In this document: positions 20,022-33,243 of the stretch, piece by piece
Layout: each line of letters begins with the position of its first letter
How positions within the stretch are numbered: the stretch's first letter is position 1
Origin: Candidatus Limnocylindrales bacterium
GTDB taxonomy: Bacteria > Moduliflexota > Moduliflexia > Moduliflexales > JAUQPW01
Direction of reading: 5' to 3'
Assembly: GCA_035559535.1 (NCBI GenBank)
Contig: DATMBG010000022.1
Span: 285,980 to 349,979, forward strand
DNA: 64,000 nucleotides
The notes under the pieces: generated by a model
What the model was told of the DNA's origin: nothing
The model's input: the letters and a program-made list of their open reading frames with translations, nothing else
The model's database searches: none
Translations under genes and position numbers: made by a program

Positions 20022-20912
20022 TTGGATACCTTCCTTGCCCACCGGTCCGATGTATCTTTATCCCGATCCCAGGCTGCAAAACTTATTAAACAGGAGCGGG
20101 TTCGGGTGAACGGCCGTCCGGTAAAGCCCAGTTACGAAGTGCAGGTAGGAGATTGGATTGAGGTAGATCTGCCGGAACCGGAACCGCTGGAACTCGTTCC
20201 CGAAGAAATCCCTTTAGATATTCTCTATGAAGATGAAGCCCTTATCGTTTTGAACAAACCGGCGGGCCTGGTGGTGCATCCGGCACCTGGACACCCAAAA
20301 GGAACCCTTGTCCATGCCTTACTGGCCCATTGCCAGAATCTTTCGGGGATCGGAGGGGTCCAAAGACCCGGTATTGTCCATCGACTGGATCGAGATACTT
20401 CCGGAGTTATGCTGATAGCTAAAACTGATCAGGCCCATCAAAGCCTTTCTACCCAACTGAAGAATCGGGAGATCATCAAGGAATATCTGGCCGTTGTTCA
20501 TGGAATTTTTAAAGATAAAAAAGGGACTCTTTCCACAGTGATCGGACGGCATACCCATGATCGTAAGAAAATGTCCGTCTTTACCCGGCAGGGTCGTCCG
20601 GCCGTTACTTCCTATGAAGTGATTGAAGAATTTCCCAATTATTCGCTGGTGAAAATCCAGATCCACACCGGACGTACCCATCAAATCCGGGTCCATATGA
20701 AATATCTGAACCATCCTGTGGTAGGAGATCCTTTGTATGGAAGAGGTGCTAAAGATCAGGCCCTTATCCAGCGCCAGGCCCTCCATGCAAAACGTATCAC
20801 TTTTAAACATCCGGTAACCGATCACCCCCTGGAGTTTGTGGCACCCCTACCGCAAGATATGAAAAATCTCCTTGAAAAGCTGCGAGCCTCATATGGAACT
20901 CAATCTCATTAA
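20022..20912 (+). CDS. rluD: RluA-family 23S rRNA pseudouridine synthase (RluD-like)
   Basis: The enzyme converts specific uridines of 23S rRNA to pseudouridine. It has an N-terminal S4 RNA-binding domain (SLSRSQAAKLIKQERVRVNG) and a catalytic domain with the nucleophilic Asp in RPGIVHRLDRDTSGVML. ALHAKRITFKHP near the C-terminus is also typical. The standard initiation codon nearest the homologous start is the UUG at 20022, but the same frame reads SFTLRVLDSDAHQRLDTF further upstream, which is the usual N-terminus of this family. An AUU at 19971 or a start lost to the upstream repeat is possible. The 3' end overlaps the CheW-fusion gene by 20 bases, so those two are probably translated together. 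Confidence 0.88.
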   Translation: MDTFLAHRSDVSLSRSQAAKLIKQERVRVNGRPVKPSYEVQVGDWIEVDLPEPEPLELVPEEIPLDILYEDEALIVLNKPAGLVVHPAPGHPKGTLVHALLAHCQNLSGIGGVQRPGIVHRLDRDTSGVMLIAKTDQAHQSLSTQLKNREIIKEYLAVVHGIFKDKKGTLSTVIGRHTHDRKKMSVFTRQGRPAVTSYEVIEEFPNYSLVKIQIHTGRTHQIRVHMKYLNHPVVGDPLYGRGAKDQALIQRQALHAKRITFKHPVTDHPLEFVAPLPQDMKNLLEKLRASYGTQSH

Positions 20913-22218
20913 ATTTAGAGTCGGTGGAGTAGATTTTGGAATTTCCGTTGAGGAAGTCCAGGAGGTTATCTTCTATCCTAAACTGCGCCCATTACCAAGA
21001 CCTCTACCCCCTGTTAAAGGGGTCTTCGAATTTCGCAATAGCCTGATCCTTCTCGTGGATCTACGGAAAAGATTGGGATTAGACTTTACCGGTTTAACAC
21101 GCAATACCCGGGTGATTGTAGCCAGATTAACCCAGGGACTTACGGGAATACTCGTGGAATCCCTCTCAGACTTCAAACGTATATCAACAGAGTCTCTCCT
21201 CCCTCCCATTCCTTTGGCCGGATTCGGTGAAGACCTTTTGAAGGGAATTTATTTACAGGACGATGAGATGATCCTGCTTCCCGATTTTAATAAGATTCTA
21301 TTTTCATTTATCCGGATCCAGTTGTCACCTCCCAGCCTCTTCGATCGGATAGCCCTTCGACATAAATTTAATAAAGGTCCGTTAACTTCGATCCTGGAAG
21401 AAATTTATACCCACCGGCAGATACCTTTTTCGACGACGCAGGCCAAGATACTTGCCAGATCCCTGGATCTGCCTGTTACCCAACTTTGTAAAATAACCTC
21501 CTTCTATCAGCGGTTTCATCCTATCTCCCCTCCCATTGAGTCCCTTGAAAGCCCGAGAATAGCCCAATTTGGGGATCAGGAATATCTCCAGCTTTCTCAA
21601 CGTTTAGAAGAAGAGGAAAGAAAAGGAAAATTAAACCTTCTGGAGATAGAATCCCATAAGGAATCCCAAGATCTTATGGAGAGATGGGATAGTTTCCTGG
21701 ATAGAAATCCCTTTGACTTACCAAAGCCGGGCCCTAAGCAAGAAGCAAGGAACAAGACGCGAAGTTTTCTTGCTTCCCACCTCTTACCCCTGGTCACGGA
21801 TTCTGGGAAGCAAATCCCTTTAACCCGATATAGAGATTTGGCCCGGAGACTGGATCTACCTACCCCCCAACTTGCGCATTTTATCTCCTTCTATAAAGGA
21901 AGTAGGGACAGGAAAATGAGCAAAGAGGATAAAGGGGAGGCCGCTGAGGTTAAATCGAAACCTGAGCTTTCTGTTAAGACCCTTTCGGAAGATCTTTTAT
22001 CCGATAAGAACCAACCCTTACCGGAGGTACTTTATACCATTCTGGACCGACAAGGCTCTATCACCCCTGAAGATATTCGATTTATCAGTCGGGTTCGAAA
22101 CCTTCCTGCCACGCAAGTCTACAAACTGGTTTCCTTTTTGTACGGGACGGAGGTCATTTTGAAAACAGAAAACTTGACAAGGAACCCGCAGGCAGTAGAT
22201 AATGCCGGCTATAAATAA
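20893..22218 (+). CDS. CheW domain fused to three NuoE-like helical domains
   Basis: A 441-residue protein with an arrangement I do not know. Residues 1-145 form a CheW domain, the scaffold of chemotaxis signalling (FGISVEEVQEVIF, LPPVKGVFEFRNSLILLVDLR). After it come three helical segments, each resembling the N-terminal helical bundle of NuoE, the 24-kDa subunit of complex I and of bifurcating hydrogenases: about 162-213 (LTSILEEIYTHRQ, then LARSLDLPVTQLCKITSFYQ), 292-337 (LARRLDLPTPQLAHFISFYK) and 374-420 (LPEVLYTILDRQGSITPEDI, then LPATQVYKLVSF). The thioredoxin-like [2Fe-2S] half of NuoE is missing. A charged linker (residues 215-285) separates copies 1 and 2. The ATG at 20893 is preferred over a UUG at 20872. 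NuoF-like and hydrogenase-like genes follow, so the NuoE-like parts may dock on them. The CheW call is firm; the NuoE likeness is from pattern and context. Confidence 0.75.
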   Translation: MELNLIKFRVGGVDFGISVEEVQEVIFYPKLRPLPRPLPPVKGVFEFRNSLILLVDLRKRLGLDFTGLTRNTRVIVARLTQGLTGILVESLSDFKRISTESLLPPIPLAGFGEDLLKGIYLQDDEMILLPDFNKILFSFIRIQLSPPSLFDRIALRHKFNKGPLTSILEEIYTHRQIPFSTTQAKILARSLDLPVTQLCKITSFYQRFHPISPPIESLESPRIAQFGDQEYLQLSQRLEEEERKGKLNLLEIESHKESQDLMERWDSFLDRNPFDLPKPGPKQEARNKTRSFLASHLLPLVTDSGKQIPLTRYRDLARRLDLPTPQLAHFISFYKGSRDRKMSKEDKGEAAEVKSKPELSVKTLSEDLLSDKNQPLPEVLYTILDRQGSITPEDIRFISRVRNLPATQVYKLVSFLYGTEVILKTENLTRNPQAVDNAGYK

Positions 22219-22253
22219 AAGGAAGATATTTCTCAAAAGTTCAGGTATTCTGA

Positions 22254-22454
22254 AAGCAGATTTTAAAATTTTGGGGTGAAAGACATCCGGGGAGCGAGGG
22301 AAATTTATTTCCGGTTCTGAATAAGATAAAAAAGGAATCAGGATCTCTGACCCTGGATGAGGCTAAACATGTGGCTTCTTTACAAGATATTTCCCATGTC
22401 CGGCTTCATAAGCTTCTCATAGTTTATAACGTAAGCGTCCCTATGGAACGTTGA
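22254..22454 (+). pseudogene. Stray NuoE-like helical domain without a start codon
   Basis: This frame is open from 22254 to a TGA ending at 22454 and has no AUG, GUG or UUG before its conserved part. It reads LNKIKKESGSLTLDEAKHVA, then LQDISHVRLHKLLIVYNVS, the same pattern as the three helical repeats of the preceding gene and of NuoE. It lies between the CheW-fusion gene (different frame) and the NuoF-like gene. It may be a decayed fourth repeat, a NuoE remnant, or a real short gene using a rare start such as CUG at 22317. Confidence 0.5.
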
Positions 22455-22483
22455 ACGTTAGATGAACGGTCATTACGCTGATT

Positions 22484-24268
22484 GTGAAAACCCTTACCGA
22501 TAAATGTTGTTCAAAATGCTGGGACAGTGAACTCCAACGCTGTCCGGTTTTTACAGAGTGCCAACCTCAACGGCCTTTGTCCCACTGTCATACAGATGAG
22601 GCTTGTATTCGTCAGCGTGAGGAGGTTGTCACCCGACTCCGGTATGGAGCCGGAACTTTGATTCGGGTTGGAGTGGGCACTTGCGGTCAACAGGCAGGAG
22701 CTTCTTCGGTATTGGGAGCTATTTTCATAGAACTTCAACGACGAAATCTTTCCCATGTAAGCCTTTCGATAACGGGATGTCTGGGAAATTGCTTCCAGGA
22801 AGTTGTGGTTTCCATTTCTCATCCTAAATACCCCACCGTTCTTTACACCCAGGTAAGTGAAGACAGGGTTCCGTATTTGATTTCCGAGCACATCGAAAAA
22901 AAGCGTATTGCCCGGGATTTGGTTTTAGCTCAACTGGAGGAGCCCGGGAAAAAGCCTTTAGGTCATGTTCCGGTCTTCAAAAATCTAGATTTTTTCCGAA
23001 AGCAGATCTGGCGCGTCTCAGAACGTTGTGGGCATATGGATCCTGAAAGCCTGGACGACTTTTTGTTGCATGGAGGTTTTCTAGGTCTTTCTAAAACCAT
23101 CAGAGAAGCTAAGCCGCCGGACCTGTTGAAATTGCTTAAAGAATCTAAGTTAAAGGGTCGTGGGGGGTCTGGAGAAGATGTGGCCGATAAATGGGCCCGC
23201 GTGGCTGCTGCAGATGGAGAGGAAAAATATATCATCTGTAATGCCCATGAAGGAGATCCGGCCTCCTTTAAGGATCGAAGGTTACTGGAAAGTGATCCCC
23301 TGGGGGTCATAGAGGCTATGACCCTGGCCGGATATACCGTTGGAGCCGGAAAAGGGATTATCTTTCTGAACCCCAGGTATGAACTGGCTAAAAAACGCTT
23401 AGAACTGGCCCTTACGAAGGCACGGGCCTTTAATTACCTGGGGAAAGAAATTCTCGGCTCGAACTTTTCTTTTGATATCGAGATTCGATTATCCCCAGGA
23501 GATTACCTGTCGGGAGAGGAAACTTCTTTGGTTACTTTCCTGGAAGGTAAAGCCGGGGTTAGAAGGGTCCCACCTCCCTTAACCAGCCAGGGTCTGTGGA
23601 ATCTTCCTACGTTGATCCACAACGTAGAAACCCTCTTGAACATACCCCTTTTGGTGGTCAAAGGGGTTGATTGGTTTCGTGAACAGGGTACCGGGAACAG
23701 TCCGGGAACTCGATGCTGGACCTTATCCGGATGCCTTCAACGGAGGGGGATCGTAGAAGCTCCCGTCGGTATTTCGATTCAAGATCTGCTGGATATGGGG
23801 GGTGGGGCCCTGCCCGGGAAGAAAATTAAAGCCGTTCATGTGGGGGGATATGTGGGAGGTTATCTGCCGGAGAGTCTGTTTCAGACTCCTTTAGACGACG
23901 TGTCCCTGAAAAAATCAGGTATTAGCTTGGGAATCGGATCTCTGGTAGCCCTGGAGGAAACCACGTGTATGGTTCATAAGACCTGGCAAGACGCTCTTTT
24001 TACGGCTAAAGAAGAGTGTGGTCAGTGTACCCCGGGGCGGGAAGGCTCTTATCAGATATCTCGATTTCTGGAGAAAATCTGCCGGGGAAGAGGAGTCCGA
24101 AGTGATCTTCAGAAGCTCAAAGAAATTGCTTTCTATATGCGGGAGGCTTCCATGTGCGCTTATGGGCGCTTTTCCCCTGGACTTATATCCAGCTCTCTGG
24201 AGTATTTCCACTCTGAGTATGAGGAGCATTTGCAGAAGCACTGCCCGGCAGGGGTTTGTTTTAAATAA
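22484..24268 (+). CDS. NuoF-like NADH-binding flavoprotein with altered cluster ligands
   Basis: A 594-residue relative of the NADH-oxidising subunit of complex I and of bifurcating hydrogenases (HydB/HndC). In order: a Cys-rich start (Cys 8, 9, 12, 20, 26, 35, 41), a thioredoxin-like ferredoxin domain (about 60-135), the FMN/NADH domain with GRGGSGEDVADKW (225-237) and NAHEGDPASFKDR, then the four-helix domain that normally holds cluster N3. Two ligand sets are incomplete. The thioredoxin-like domain has Cys67, Cys99 and Cys103 but no first Cys. The N3 motif reads CGQCTPG, with Gly518 where the third Cys should be; Cys512, Cys515 and Cys558 remain. There is no C-terminal ferredoxin domain. 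Start is GUG at 22484. The HydA-like gene begins 9 bases after the stop, so they are one operon. Confidence 0.85.
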   Translation: MKTLTDKCCSKCWDSELQRCPVFTECQPQRPLSHCHTDEACIRQREEVVTRLRYGAGTLIRVGVGTCGQQAGASSVLGAIFIELQRRNLSHVSLSITGCLGNCFQEVVVSISHPKYPTVLYTQVSEDRVPYLISEHIEKKRIARDLVLAQLEEPGKKPLGHVPVFKNLDFFRKQIWRVSERCGHMDPESLDDFLLHGGFLGLSKTIREAKPPDLLKLLKESKLKGRGGSGEDVADKWARVAAADGEEKYIICNAHEGDPASFKDRRLLESDPLGVIEAMTLAGYTVGAGKGIIFLNPRYELAKKRLELALTKARAFNYLGKEILGSNFSFDIEIRLSPGDYLSGEETSLVTFLEGKAGVRRVPPPLTSQGLWNLPTLIHNVETLLNIPLLVVKGVDWFREQGTGNSPGTRCWTLSGCLQRRGIVEAPVGISIQDLLDMGGGALPGKKIKAVHVGGYVGGYLPESLFQTPLDDVSLKKSGISLGIGSLVALEETTCMVHKTWQDALFTAKEECGQCTPGREGSYQISRFLEKICRGRGVRSDLQKLKEIAFYMREASMCAYGRFSPGLISSSLEYFHSEYEEHLQKHCPAGVCFK

Positions 24269-24277
24269 GAGGGGAAA

Positions 24278-26026
24278 ATGGATCTCATTTCGATTCTTAT
24301 CGATAACCGGGAAATTCAGATTCCCAGAGGAATTACGGTTTTAGAAGCGGCTGAATCCCTGGATATTAAAATTCCTGCACTATGTGTTTCCCCAGGCTGG
24401 GGAACGTCCGGTTTTTGTCGAAGTTGCGTGGTAGAGGTGGAAGGAGAGGATTACCTTCCCATAGCCTGTAGTCTGCCCGTTCAAGAAGGGATGGTTATCA
24501 AAACGAACTCCCCCAGAGTACTTGAATCCCGTAGATTAACGGTGGAATTGCTCCTTGCCCGCCATACCATGGATTGTGCTGTCTGTTATCGAAATGGCAG
24601 GTGTTCTCTCCAAGATCTGGCAAATACCTACGGAATCAAGGAATCTCGATTTCTTACCCGAGAGAAACCCCTGGAAATCGATGATAAAAGTCCGGCCATT
24701 GTGCATAATCCCAACCGCTGTATTCTATGTGGTTTATGTGTTCAGGCCTGTTGCGATATCCAAACCGTTTCGGTGATTGATTTTGCCCATCGAGGATTCG
24801 ACCGGGTCGTGGAACCGGCCTTCGGACAGAGTCTTAATGAGGTGGAATGTGTTGCCTGTGGGCAGTGCATCCAGATCTGTCCGGTAGAATCTTTCTATGA
24901 AAAAAGCGAGATCGATAAAGTAAGGGAAGCCCTGAGAGATCCCCATAAAGAGGTTGTGGCGTTTTTATCTCCTTCGGTGCCGCTCTCTATCGGAGAAGAG
25001 TTTGGAATCGAGCCCGGAAAGTCTCTCTCCGGAGAAGTTATAAAGGCCTTGAAAATGGCCGGTTTTAAGAAGGTTTTTGATACCGCTCTGGGGGCCGATT
25101 TGGTAATCATGGAAGAAGCTTATGAGCTGTTAACCCGCTGGAATTCGGGTAAAAGTCTCCCTCTGATAACCTCCTGTAGTCCGGAGTGGGTCAAGTTCGT
25201 CGAGCACTTTTATCCGGAACTCTTACCTCATCTCTGTCCTACCAAATCCCCCCAGCAGATCATGGGAACTTTAGCCAAGACCTATTTTGCCGAGATTACG
25301 AAGATAGATTTGAAAAATCTCTTTACGGTTTCTATAACTCCTTGTACGGCTGAGAAGTTTGAGCGGACCCGACCGGAGTTAAATATCCAGGGTTTTCCGG
25401 ATATAGATGCCTGTTTAACCGTCAAAGAGGTAGCCCGCCTCATTCGGATGACCCTGGGAAACCCTTTTCCCGATATCGGCTCCGAAGAGTTTGATCAACC
25501 CTTCGAGGTCTCATCGGGAGCAGGAGTTATATTCGGAGTGGCCGGGGGGGTCATGGAAGGTGTGCTGAGGACTCTGTACGAGCTTAAAGTCGGTAAGAAG
25601 TTGAAATCGGTAGCTTTTGAGAATATCCGGGAAGAAGTCAGAACTTCTTACAGCGGAGGCCTTCGGGAAGTGGAGGTTCAAGTAGGAAATGAAACCCTTC
25701 AGGTTGCTGTGGTGCACGGATTAGGAAATGCCAGAAGGATATTGGAGGCCCTTCGATCCGGGAAGAGCCGGTATCATTTTATCGAAGTAAAAGGATGCCC
25801 CAACGGCTGTGCTCAGGGGGGCGGTCAACCTATTCCAGCTACCCTTGAAATTATTCAGGCTCGAGAACGCGGCCTTTATCTAGAGGATGAAAAAAGAAAA
25901 ATCCGTAAAGCCCATGAAAATCCCAGAATCAAAGAACTTTATGAAAAATTTTTTAAAAAACCCGCCAGTCCCACGGCCAGAAAATTCCTACACACGGAGT
26001 TTACGCCGCGGGAACACCATCTCTAA
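24278..26026 (+). CDS. [FeFe]-hydrogenase-like protein (HydA/NuoG type) with changed H-cluster residues
   Basis: A 582-residue protein with the domain order of large [FeFe]-hydrogenases: [2Fe-2S] ferredoxin (CVSPGWGTSGFCRSC), His-ligated cluster (HTMDCAVCYRNGRC), two [4Fe-4S] sites (CILCGLCVQACC and CVACGQCIQICP), H-cluster domain, and a fused small-subunit tail. The three H-cluster motifs are present but changed. Motif 1 reads TSCSPEW: Cys300 stays, but Ser301 replaces the second Cys, the cubane ligand C300 of the Clostridium pasteurianum enzyme. Motif 2 reads TPCTAEKFE: Thr and Glu359 replace the Met and the Lys that bind the two-iron site. Motif 3 reads VKGCPNGC: both Cys stay but Met becomes Lys. 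Such changes suggest it does not make or use hydrogen, and may instead relay or sense electrons. No hydE, hydF or hydG maturases are in the window. Confidence 0.85.
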   Translation: MDLISILIDNREIQIPRGITVLEAAESLDIKIPALCVSPGWGTSGFCRSCVVEVEGEDYLPIACSLPVQEGMVIKTNSPRVLESRRLTVELLLARHTMDCAVCYRNGRCSLQDLANTYGIKESRFLTREKPLEIDDKSPAIVHNPNRCILCGLCVQACCDIQTVSVIDFAHRGFDRVVEPAFGQSLNEVECVACGQCIQICPVESFYEKSEIDKVREALRDPHKEVVAFLSPSVPLSIGEEFGIEPGKSLSGEVIKALKMAGFKKVFDTALGADLVIMEEAYELLTRWNSGKSLPLITSCSPEWVKFVEHFYPELLPHLCPTKSPQQIMGTLAKTYFAEITKIDLKNLFTVSITPCTAEKFERTRPELNIQGFPDIDACLTVKEVARLIRMTLGNPFPDIGSEEFDQPFEVSSGAGVIFGVAGGVMEGVLRTLYELKVGKKLKSVAFENIREEVRTSYSGGLREVEVQVGNETLQVAVVHGLGNARRILEALRSGKSRYHFIEVKGCPNGCAQGGGQPIPATLEIIQARERGLYLEDEKRKIRKAHENPRIKELYEKFFKKPASPTARKFLHTEFTPREHHL

Positions 26027-31882: not shown

Positions 31883-31976
<94 letters not shown>

Positions 31977-32089
31977 GGGAACTTCTCAGTGACCCTTTGC
32001 TTTCGTATAAGGTCTCTTATCAATATACATCTTTATCTTTTTTGGTGCGAGGAGAATTCTTTATCTTCTCCCCAATATTTAAAAGAGCA

Positions 32090-32177
32090 CGGAGAGGGGG
32101 GGATTCGAACCCCCGAGGGACATAAAATCCCTAATGACTTTCGAGGCCATCCCGTTCAACCACTCCGGCACCTCTCC
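32090..32177 (-). tRNA. tRNA-Ser (anticodon CGA)
   Basis: Reverse strand: acceptor GGAGAGG/CCTCTCC with discriminator G. The anticodon loop CTCGAAA gives CGA (codon UCG). The variable arm is AGGGATTTTATGTCCCT. It lies 45 bases downstream of tadA. Confidence 0.95.
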
Positions 32178-32221
32178 AGGGAAAAATCAAAAGTAGAACC
32201 AACCTGTATCTCGCCCCAGGC

Positions 32222-32698
32222 TTAACCCTTCCAAGACCCTACCGGGCGGAGGGTTTTAAAAAAAGTCTTTAAAATCTCGCTACAGGCCGCCTCCAGGATT
32301 CCGGAAGTGACTTCGATTTGATGATTTAACCGGGGGTCTTGAGCGAGGTTGTAAAGGGATCCTACTGCTCCTGCCTTGGGATCTGAGACCCCATACACGA
32401 GATGCTGGATGCGAGCTAAAATTAACGCCCCCACACACATGCTACAGGGCTCCAAAGTTACATAAACGGTTGCATGGGGTAGCCGCCAGGAATTCAACTT
32501 CCGACAGGCTTCCCGGAGAGCCAGCACCTCTGCATGGGCCGTAGGGTCCTGTAGGGCTTCTCGTTGATTATGACCTTTTCCTACTATCTGACCTTCGACG
32601 ACTACAAGGGCTCCTACGGGTACTTCACCTTCTTTGAAGGCCAGCCCGGCCTCTTGAAGGGCCAGGCGCATAAACTCTTCATGCCGATGATTTTCCAT
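32222..32698 (-). CDS. tadA: tRNA-specific adenosine deaminase
   Basis: TadA deaminates A34 to inosine in tRNA-Arg(ACG), allowing it to read CGU, CGC and CGA. The 158-residue cytidine-deaminase-fold protein has the zinc and catalytic motif TAHAE (His and Glu) and PCSMCVGA (two Cys). GEVPVGALVV and NSWRLPHATVYVTLEP also fit. Its substrate, tRNA-Arg(ACG), is encoded 97 bases upstream on the same strand, so enzyme and substrate are probably on one transcript. Confidence 0.95.
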   Translation of the reverse strand: MENHRHEEFMRLALQEAGLAFKEGEVPVGALVVVEGQIVGKGHNQREALQDPTAHAEVLALREACRKLNSWRLPHATVYVTLEPCSMCVGALILARIQHLVYGVSDPKAGAVGSLYNLAQDPRLNHQIEVTSGILEAACSEILKTFFKTLRPVGSWKG

Positions 32699-32794
32699 AA
32701 AATCTACTTTTACTCCTACAGCACCTTATCTTTAAGAGTCGGCAGGACCTTCTGGAGCGTATCGAAGAAGGTAATACCCAGAGTAGAAAAGAAA

Positions 32795-32868
32795 TGCGCC
32801 CAGGAGGAGTCGAACCCCCAGCCTACAGATCCGTAGTCTGTTGCTCTATCCAATTGAGCTATGGGCGC
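32795..32868 (-). tRNA. tRNA-Arg (anticodon ACG)
   Basis: Reverse strand: acceptor GCGCCCA/TGGGCGC with discriminator A. The anticodon loop CTACGGA gives ACG, the form converted to ICG by TadA. The T arm has GGGGG-TTCGACT. It is flanked by tadA and tRNA-Ser(GCT) in the same direction. Confidence 0.96.
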
Positions 32869-32885
32869 ACGACACAAACAAATTC

Positions 32886-32977
<92 letters not shown>

Positions 32978-33113
32978 CAGCCCCTCCCTCTCCCTCCCCG
33001 TATACGGGGAGGGCTGGGGTGGGACGCTGTTAAACTAACAATATATATTTTAATTGAAAACCCGATTTATTTCAACCTTTGTTTTAAGTACGGGCGCAAG
33101 GCATTGCGCCCCT
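32978..33113. repeat. Two hairpins in spacer: CCCTCCCCGT palindrome and GGGCGC palindrome
   Basis: CCCTCCCCGT-AT-ACGGGGAGGG with outer CCCAG/CTGGG words lies at 32978-33020. GGGCGCAA-GGCA-TTGCGCCC followed by CTAC lies at 33092-33111; it is the reverse complement of the copy at 31366-31385. Both lie in the spacer between two tRNA-Ser genes. Confidence 0.8.
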
Positions 33114-33156
33114 ACCGGGTTCTGATCTCACAGCAATAAATTCTAAAATTTATAGG

Positions 33157-33243
33157 CGGAGAGGGAGGGATTCGAACCCCCGGACCTCGTAAAAGGTCTG
33201 CGGTTTTCAAGACCGCCCCGTTCGGCCACTCCGGCACCTCTCC
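33157..33243 (-). tRNA. tRNA-Ser (anticodon TGA)
   Basis: Reverse strand: acceptor GGAGAGG/CCTCTCC with discriminator G. The anticodon loop CTTGAAA gives TGA (codons UCA, UCG, UCU). Variable arm AGACCTTTTACGAGGTCC. Its 5' end lies only 3 bases after the serS stop codon, so it must be processed out of the serS message. Confidence 0.96.

Follow-up and report, generated by a model that had tools for sequence, protein, structure and literature searches.

Gene organization of the locus

The window analyzed here is a stretch of 64,000 nucleotides from contig DATMBG010000022.1 of Candidatus Limnocylindrales bacterium, which was taken as a member of candidate phylum KSB3 and has a source assembly of 5.6 Mb (G000). 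The genes under study are three neighbors on the forward strand, encoding a fusion of a CheW domain with NuoE-type helical bundles, a NuoF/HydB-like protein and a HydA group A-like protein. An earlier note on this DNA had named the same NuoF-like and HydA-like neighbors of the fusion, and Pfam and NCBIfam searches recovered both assignments.

The order was sampled with four genomes: that of the window, that of a congeneric species (G001) and, from another family, those of candidate division KSB3 bacterium DOLJORAL78_50_49 (G002) and bacterium UASB270 (G003). According to extracts of Sekiguchi et al. 2015 (PMC4312070), that study covered two KSB3 genomes, UASB270 among them. The genomes are 93–97% complete, and single genes could be hidden by incomplete assembly. 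The same row, an rluD-type pseudouridine synthase gene followed by the fusion, NuoF-like and HydA-like genes, was found on one strand in all four genomes, which answers the call of the earlier note for a comparison of gene order. The rluD and fusion genes of the window overlap by 20 bases, and the stretch from the fusion to the HydA-like gene contains no oxidoreductase gene beyond the row itself. The flanks upstream of rluD and downstream of the HydA-like gene are unlike between the two families.

The CheW fusion protein

The open reading frame of the fusion runs from an ATG at 20893 to a TAA at 22216–22218, with an alternative TTG start listed at 20872. The Pfam CheW model matched residues 6–136 with 87.6 bits (cut-off 23.5), and the NCBIfam CheW equivalog model NF007903 gave 41.1 bits, below its cut-off of 260. 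In an alignment of 13 fusion proteins the positions matching Gly57 and Arg62 of Escherichia coli CheW were invariant, Glu38 was kept in 12 rows and Gly63 was replaced in all 13. We take these four positions to be important receptor/CheA contacts of CheW. With a full CheW domain and the Gly57 and Arg62 positions kept, the fusion resembles CheW and the CheW-fusion couplers. CheV is such a coupling protein, consisting of CheW fused to a receiver domain; the fusion differs from it in adding a row of NuoE-type bundles rather than a receiver domain, and in the changed Gly63 position.

The remainder of the protein consists of helical repeats. PF01257, the NuoE family, was matched by the whole fusion with 26.2 bits (cut-off 24.8), no single stretch passing alone; the best stretch, residues 372–415, covers profile positions 11–54 of 145. 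Weak NCBIfam matches below cut-off were obtained for the gamma subunit of formate dehydrogenase (151–209), HoxE (371–416) and NuoE (378–415). A hidden Markov model (HMM) of the NuoE N-terminus, NuoE-N, was built from the N-termini of eight ordinary NuoE proteins encoded in these genomes (12 loci were tried, four of them without the pattern). It found 24 stretches in the 13 fusion proteins versus one in 260 shuffled copies, and two weak stretches of 6.2 and 3.8 bits in the fusion of the window itself. Comparison with NuoE-N using hhalign gave 97.3% for repeat 1, 64.9% for repeat 2, 96.0% for repeat 3 and 94.6% for repeat 4 in the family of the window. In the other family repeat 3 reached 85% and repeats 2 and 4 reached 17–19%, and a CheW control gave 0.2%.

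The fusion model had a mean predicted local distance difference test (pLDDT) of 63 and a predicted template modeling score (pTM) of 0.38, was derived from 13 alignment rows and was used at the level of bundles. Structural re-ranking with the model of the sister fusion placed chains from complexes with NuoE/HydC-type subunits at rows 12–41 of 50. These matches sit over repeats 3 and 4, with repeat 1 lower in the ranking; over bundle 2 the re-ranking gave no NuoE match, and a nuclear-pore chain covers residues 253–337 (row 42). In Foldseek alone the best E value of a NuoE-type chain was 0.057, and sigma-factor and other helical rows stood between these chains at low probability.

The N-terminal helical bundle of NuoE/HydC is present in the fusion, support being weak for bundle 2 and for bundles 2 and 4 of the other family. 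The CheW domain and three NuoE-like segments described in the earlier note are borne out for the window by the CheW, PF01257 and hhalign scores, and its concern that the repeats might fold into something else was not realized for most of them, which resemble the NuoE bundle by HMM, hhalign and structural re-ranking. Four bundles are the form of the family, being present in most relatives. In the window, bundle 4 is a relic (about 22219–22442), preceded by the in-frame TAA and, compared with G001, by a gap of one base. The fusion proteins contain 0–5 cysteines each, none of them shared by the set; judged from the sequences, the thioredoxin-like domain that carries the four 2Fe-2S cysteines of NuoE/HydC is missing.

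The NuoF-like and HydA-like proteins

The NuoF-like protein consists of a CCxxC prefix, a thioredoxin-like part and the Nuo51 and iron-sulfur regions, and stops at CPAGVCFK. It has no C-terminal ferredoxin domain such as bifurcating HydB carries and such as both ordinary HydB genes of DOLJORAL78_50_49 have. The third cysteine of the CxxCxxC motif, which belongs to the 4Fe-4S site, is glycine in the window (CGQCTPG) and is lost in all 34 rows of the NuoF-like clade. All 34 also read NAHE in place of NADE, and the NADH loop GRGGxGF is without its aromatic residue in each of the 33 rows that cover it. Among the outgroup NuoF sequences the third cysteine and the aromatic residue are kept in 33/33 and NADE in 32/33. 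The CCxxC prefix (22484–22639) is conserved in the NuoF-like copies of the four genomes and gave 32.7 bits with NF040902, below the cut-off of 45; it is perhaps a metal site.

The HydA-like protein contains a NuoG-type Fe-S region (residues 1–211), an H-domain (224–515) and a small-subunit region (524–578). The model of the window's protein had a pLDDT of 89.1, a pTM of 0.89 and a template modeling (TM) score of 0.88 to HydA of Thermoanaerobacter kivui, so that in the predicted structure the hydrogenase fold is retained. The group A HydA model TIGR02512 was passed with 432.6 bits (cut-off 405.95), and the model for NADH-dependent group A6, NF040763, gave 706.7 bits, below its cut-off of 765. 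None of the 22 Pfam families reported for this protein at E up to 1 is a PAS domain.

The database search with the four HydA-like proteins gave 3951 matches, and the comparison rests on the best 120, which comprise 40 rows of the HydA-like clade and 80 ordinary HydA proteins. A score gap from 857 to 741 bits separates the clade from the ordinary NADH-linked HydA. In a 64-row tree a branch with 100/100 support set the 40 rows, the window and UASB270 apart from 22 ordinary rows, of which two came from DOLJORAL78_50_49 and 20 from the set of 80.

The hydrogenase motifs are MPCxxKxxE (L2), ExMACxxGC (L3) and TSC[C/S]PxW (L1), L2 and L3 being given after extracts of PMC6085437. Residues were numbered by counting on an alignment of the HydA-like protein with CpI. 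In the window Met353 is replaced by Thr, Lys358 by Glu and Met497 by Lys; throughout the clade (40/40) the replacements are Thr or Ser, Glu and Lys, respectively, whereas the 80 best ordinary HydA proteins have Met, Lys and Met without exception. The six rows of the window's family keep the cysteine of L1, which is replaced by Ser or Ala in the other 34, and all 40 retain the three remaining cubane cysteines, which belong to L2 and L3. L1 alone was dropped as proof of inactivity, as listed ordinary relatives read TSCSPGW and the window TSCSPEW, one residue apart.

The maturation proteins HydF and HydG were absent above cut-off from the assemblies of the window, its sister species and UASB270, each 93–97% complete; HydE was not searched. 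Both were found over cut-off in DOLJORAL78_50_49, which has two ordinary HydA genes with intact L1–L3. These lie at loci L102 and L103, each near NuoE- and HydB-type genes, with HydG and HydF close to the L103 copy. In UASB270 (locus L039) the sole full-length HydA-like match found was of the dead type; NiFe hydrogenases were not searched. H2 formation has been predicted in print for UASB270, though neither HydF nor HydG was found above cut-off there.

The earlier note had allowed for a scaffold of a new electron-transfer complex. A stronger version of its idea is a working if unusual [FeFe] hydrogenase complex that couples its electron output to chemotaxis. TIGR02512 is passed and the L1 cysteine is kept in 6/40 rows including those of the window's family, as such an enzyme would have it, but Met353, Lys358 and Met497 are replaced in 40/40, NF040763 is not passed and HydF and HydG fall below cut-off in three of the four genomes. 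A working hydrogenase was rejected on these L2/L3 residues and the missing HydF and HydG, and we consider it very improbable. A new NADH-linked complex is not supported either, with key active-site residues of both partners replaced clade-wide and HydF and HydG above cut-off in 1/4 genomes. Judged by their residues, the NuoF-like and the HydA-like protein both seem to be dead enzymes.

The relay of the HydA-like protein is better preserved. The ligands of the 2Fe-2S cluster, the His-Cys3 4Fe-4S cluster and two more 4Fe-4S clusters were assigned from known motifs to 16 positions, all of which are kept in every covering row of the clade (n = 40; one or two rows are gapped at the 2Fe-2S positions). 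This bears on the main rival of a sensory function, in which the dead hydrogenase subunits are building material or an anchor only, with CheW there to position them or to space the array and no redox sensing involved. The lost redox sites of the NuoF-like protein, the fusion without a conserved cysteine and the repeated docking bundles all fit such a scaffold; the relay ligands have nevertheless been kept despite lost catalysis, and a mere scaffold would not need them. We regard it as unlikely, if still a serious contender.

The same ligands could instead belong to a redox enzyme with an altered reaction, in which the Fe-S chain of the HydA-like protein feeds another partner and CheW is a mere protein contact. 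The H-domain fold is kept in the predicted model, and HylA, a HydA homolog without the L1–L3 motifs, is thought to pass electrons according to extracts of PMC6085437. Throughout the clade, however, the NuoF-like subunit has a changed NADH loop and 4Fe-4S motif, the fusion is without the thioredoxin-like 2Fe-2S part of NuoE, and the three genes have no other oxidoreductase gene between them, which makes an altered enzyme rather improbable.

Conservation and distribution

The ratio of nonsynonymous to synonymous substitution rates (dN/dS) between the window and the sister species was 0.17 for the fusion, 0.12 for the NuoF-like and 0.08 for the HydA-like gene, compared to 0.12 for rluD, 0.08 for livF and 0.035 for a mutase gene nearby. 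These values indicate purifying selection on all three genes in the one species pair tested. Decay into functionless pseudogenes would account for the active-site losses and for the loss of the fourth bundle in the window's fusion, but dN/dS values of 0.08–0.17 lie in the range of rluD and livF, above the mutase, and three open frames in one gene order are kept in 4/4 genomes. Pseudogenes were rejected on these grounds and are scarcely credible. Since the motif residues are replaced, HydF and HydG fall below cut-off in three genomes and dN/dS is low, the three genes are, on sequence evidence, kept for something other than H2 turnover.

A model of the bundle region matched 29 of 385 genomes, those beyond the order being related to the window at the level of domain only. 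The four genomes of the order were matched over most or nearly all of its length, and the remaining 25 over one stretch each, never longer than 79 positions; two of these 25 were inspected and proved to be NuoE-like reading frames with a CxGxC region. In a fusion search 18 loci were obtained, of which three belong to genomes of the order; in the other 15 the match ends at or before residue 154. The multi-bundle fusion was not found outside the order in these genome searches. Among database proteins 7995 candidates sharing most words were scored, a procedure by which distant fusions may be missed, and 11 of the 12 scored as relatives are fusions (a phylum is given for a minority); the twelfth, P0012, has CheW only. 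The fusion is therefore not unique to one genome, as the earlier note had feared, being present in 4/4 genomes of the order and in further database proteins. Fusion and HydA-like rows have a longest-contig size in common in 6/11 of these database fusions, as do NuoF-like and HydA-like rows in 11/34 NuoF-like rows, which suggests, without proof, that the genes are linked elsewhere too.

The features of the locus are collected in Table 1. Elsewhere in the window, five tRNA genes (four Ser, one Arg) lie on the minus strand within 1.4 kb (31887–33243), and the short plus-strand reading frames that overlap them are likely spurious.

Table 1. Features of the CheW fusion locus, in positions of the window.
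Feature	Position	Strand	Remarks
rluD-type pseudouridine synthase	20022..20912	+	Pfam PF00849 and S4; constant upstream neighbor, also in L039, L040, L041
Fusion gene, CheW and NuoE-type helical bundles, 441 aa	20893..22218	+	no conserved cysteine
CheW domain	20908..21300	+	residues 6–136
NuoE-type bundle 1	21340..21525	+	about residues 150–211
Linker motif G-D-x-x-Y-x-x-L after bundle 1	21571..21594	+	four positions invariant in 13/13 fusion rows
NuoE-type bundle 2	21739..21903	+	about residues 283–337; least certain bundle; hhalign 64.9% to NuoE-N, 95.7% to bundle 1
NuoE-type bundle 3	21982..22146	+	about residues 364–418
TAA stop and relic of bundle 4	22216..22442	+	open in sister genome G001; intact copies 94.6% to NuoE-N by hhalign
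NuoF/HydB-like protein, 594 aa	22484..24268	+	Pfam, NCBIfam
HydA group A-like protein, 582 aa	24278..26026	+	Pfam, NCBIfam

Discussion

The reading preferred here, to which we give a rough probability of 0.4, is that the CheW fusion, the NuoF-like and the HydA-like protein would form a non-catalytic redox sensor reporting to a CheA array. The earlier note had suggested a redox module coupled to a signaling array. Of that proposal the fusion has been confirmed, its gene order is shared by 4/4 genomes and the coupling is still the best reading; catalytically active partners are not supported.

NuoE/HydC contacts NuoF/HydB through its N-terminal bundle in HydABC and in complex I, and the bundles of the fusion may dock on NuoF-like subunits in the same way. 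The sensor would descend from a HydABC hydrogenase in which catalysis was lost and a CheW-bearing scaffold took the place of the NuoE subunit. Because the bundles are multiplied and would each dock on a NuoF-like subunit, one adaptor could carry up to three or four dead NuoF-like/HydA-like pairs. The CheW end would enter the rings of CheA-P5 and CheW. Oxidation or reduction of the HydA-like Fe-S chain, perhaps by ferredoxin, might there alter assembly and so kinase output, leading to an energy taxis or gliding response.

The four genomes, in the order G000 to G003, have 5, 3, 5 and 8 matches to the CheA dimerization domain, all away from this locus, and that of the window has 17 CheW-domain matches. 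In the extracts of PMC4312070, KSB3 filaments are described as gliding along sugar gradients and as unusually rich in signaling genes, and its authors remark that some hydrogenase genes lie near signaling genes and may serve signaling and chemotaxis. The same extracts place no sensory domain in the hydrogenase proteins themselves, and the word CheW is absent from the main text of the paper. Three points weigh against a redox sensor: there is no explained signal path from the HydA-like clusters to CheW, the intervening NuoF-like subunit has lost its redox sites, and the bundles of the other family have drifted. The fuller picture, in which a former hydrogenase is the redox-sensing core of the array, with NuoE swapped for CheW with up to four bundles and several dead HydAB pairs per CheW position, and steers gliding KSB3 filaments through their Fe-S redox state, is offered as a tentative possibility.

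Among known systems, the locus comes close to HydABC, the NADH-linked [FeFe] hydrogenase of Acetobacterium woodii, T. kivui and Thermotoga maritima, where the HydA-like subunit likewise adjoins a NuoF/HydB-like one and a third gene supplies the NuoE/HydC bundle; the TM score to T. kivui HydA given above belongs to the same likeness. The KSB3 proteins differ from HydABC in the changed Met353, Lys358 and Met497, NADH loop and HydB 4Fe-4S motif, in the missing HydB ferredoxin domain, and in that the 2Fe-2S domain of HydC is absent and its bundle multiplied and placed on CheW. Sensory [FeFe] hydrogenases of the HydS type bear a PAS domain. They share with the present case a hydrogenase fold that is apparently in a signaling role here, whereas no PAS domain was found on the KSB3 protein, its catalytic residues are replaced, and its link is with CheW instead of a kinase or phosphatase. 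HylA and the eukaryotic Nar1/NARF are HydA homologs without H-cluster chemistry, HylA having no known link to CheW or NuoE bundles; we know of no such link for Nar1/NARF either. In the open-licence literature no account of a CheW–NuoE-bundle fusion was found, subscription papers not being covered. Each of the domains was already known, as were HydA homologs without H-cluster chemistry such as HylA; the combination, with multiplied NuoE bundles on CheW replacing the NuoE subunit of a dead hydrogenase, was met neither beyond the order in the genome searches nor in the open-licence papers covered.

For the annotation of these organisms the locus, if read rightly, is a warning that HydA homology alone does not amount to H2 metabolism, as the case of UASB270 illustrates. 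If the sensor reading is true, a whole redox enzyme complex has been turned into a signaling part, with catalysis lost and the electron wire kept, and it would be tied directly to the chemotaxis adaptor, bypassing a membrane receptor. It would then provide a cytoplasmic energy sensor for the KSB3 filaments that cause bulking in anaerobic reactors.
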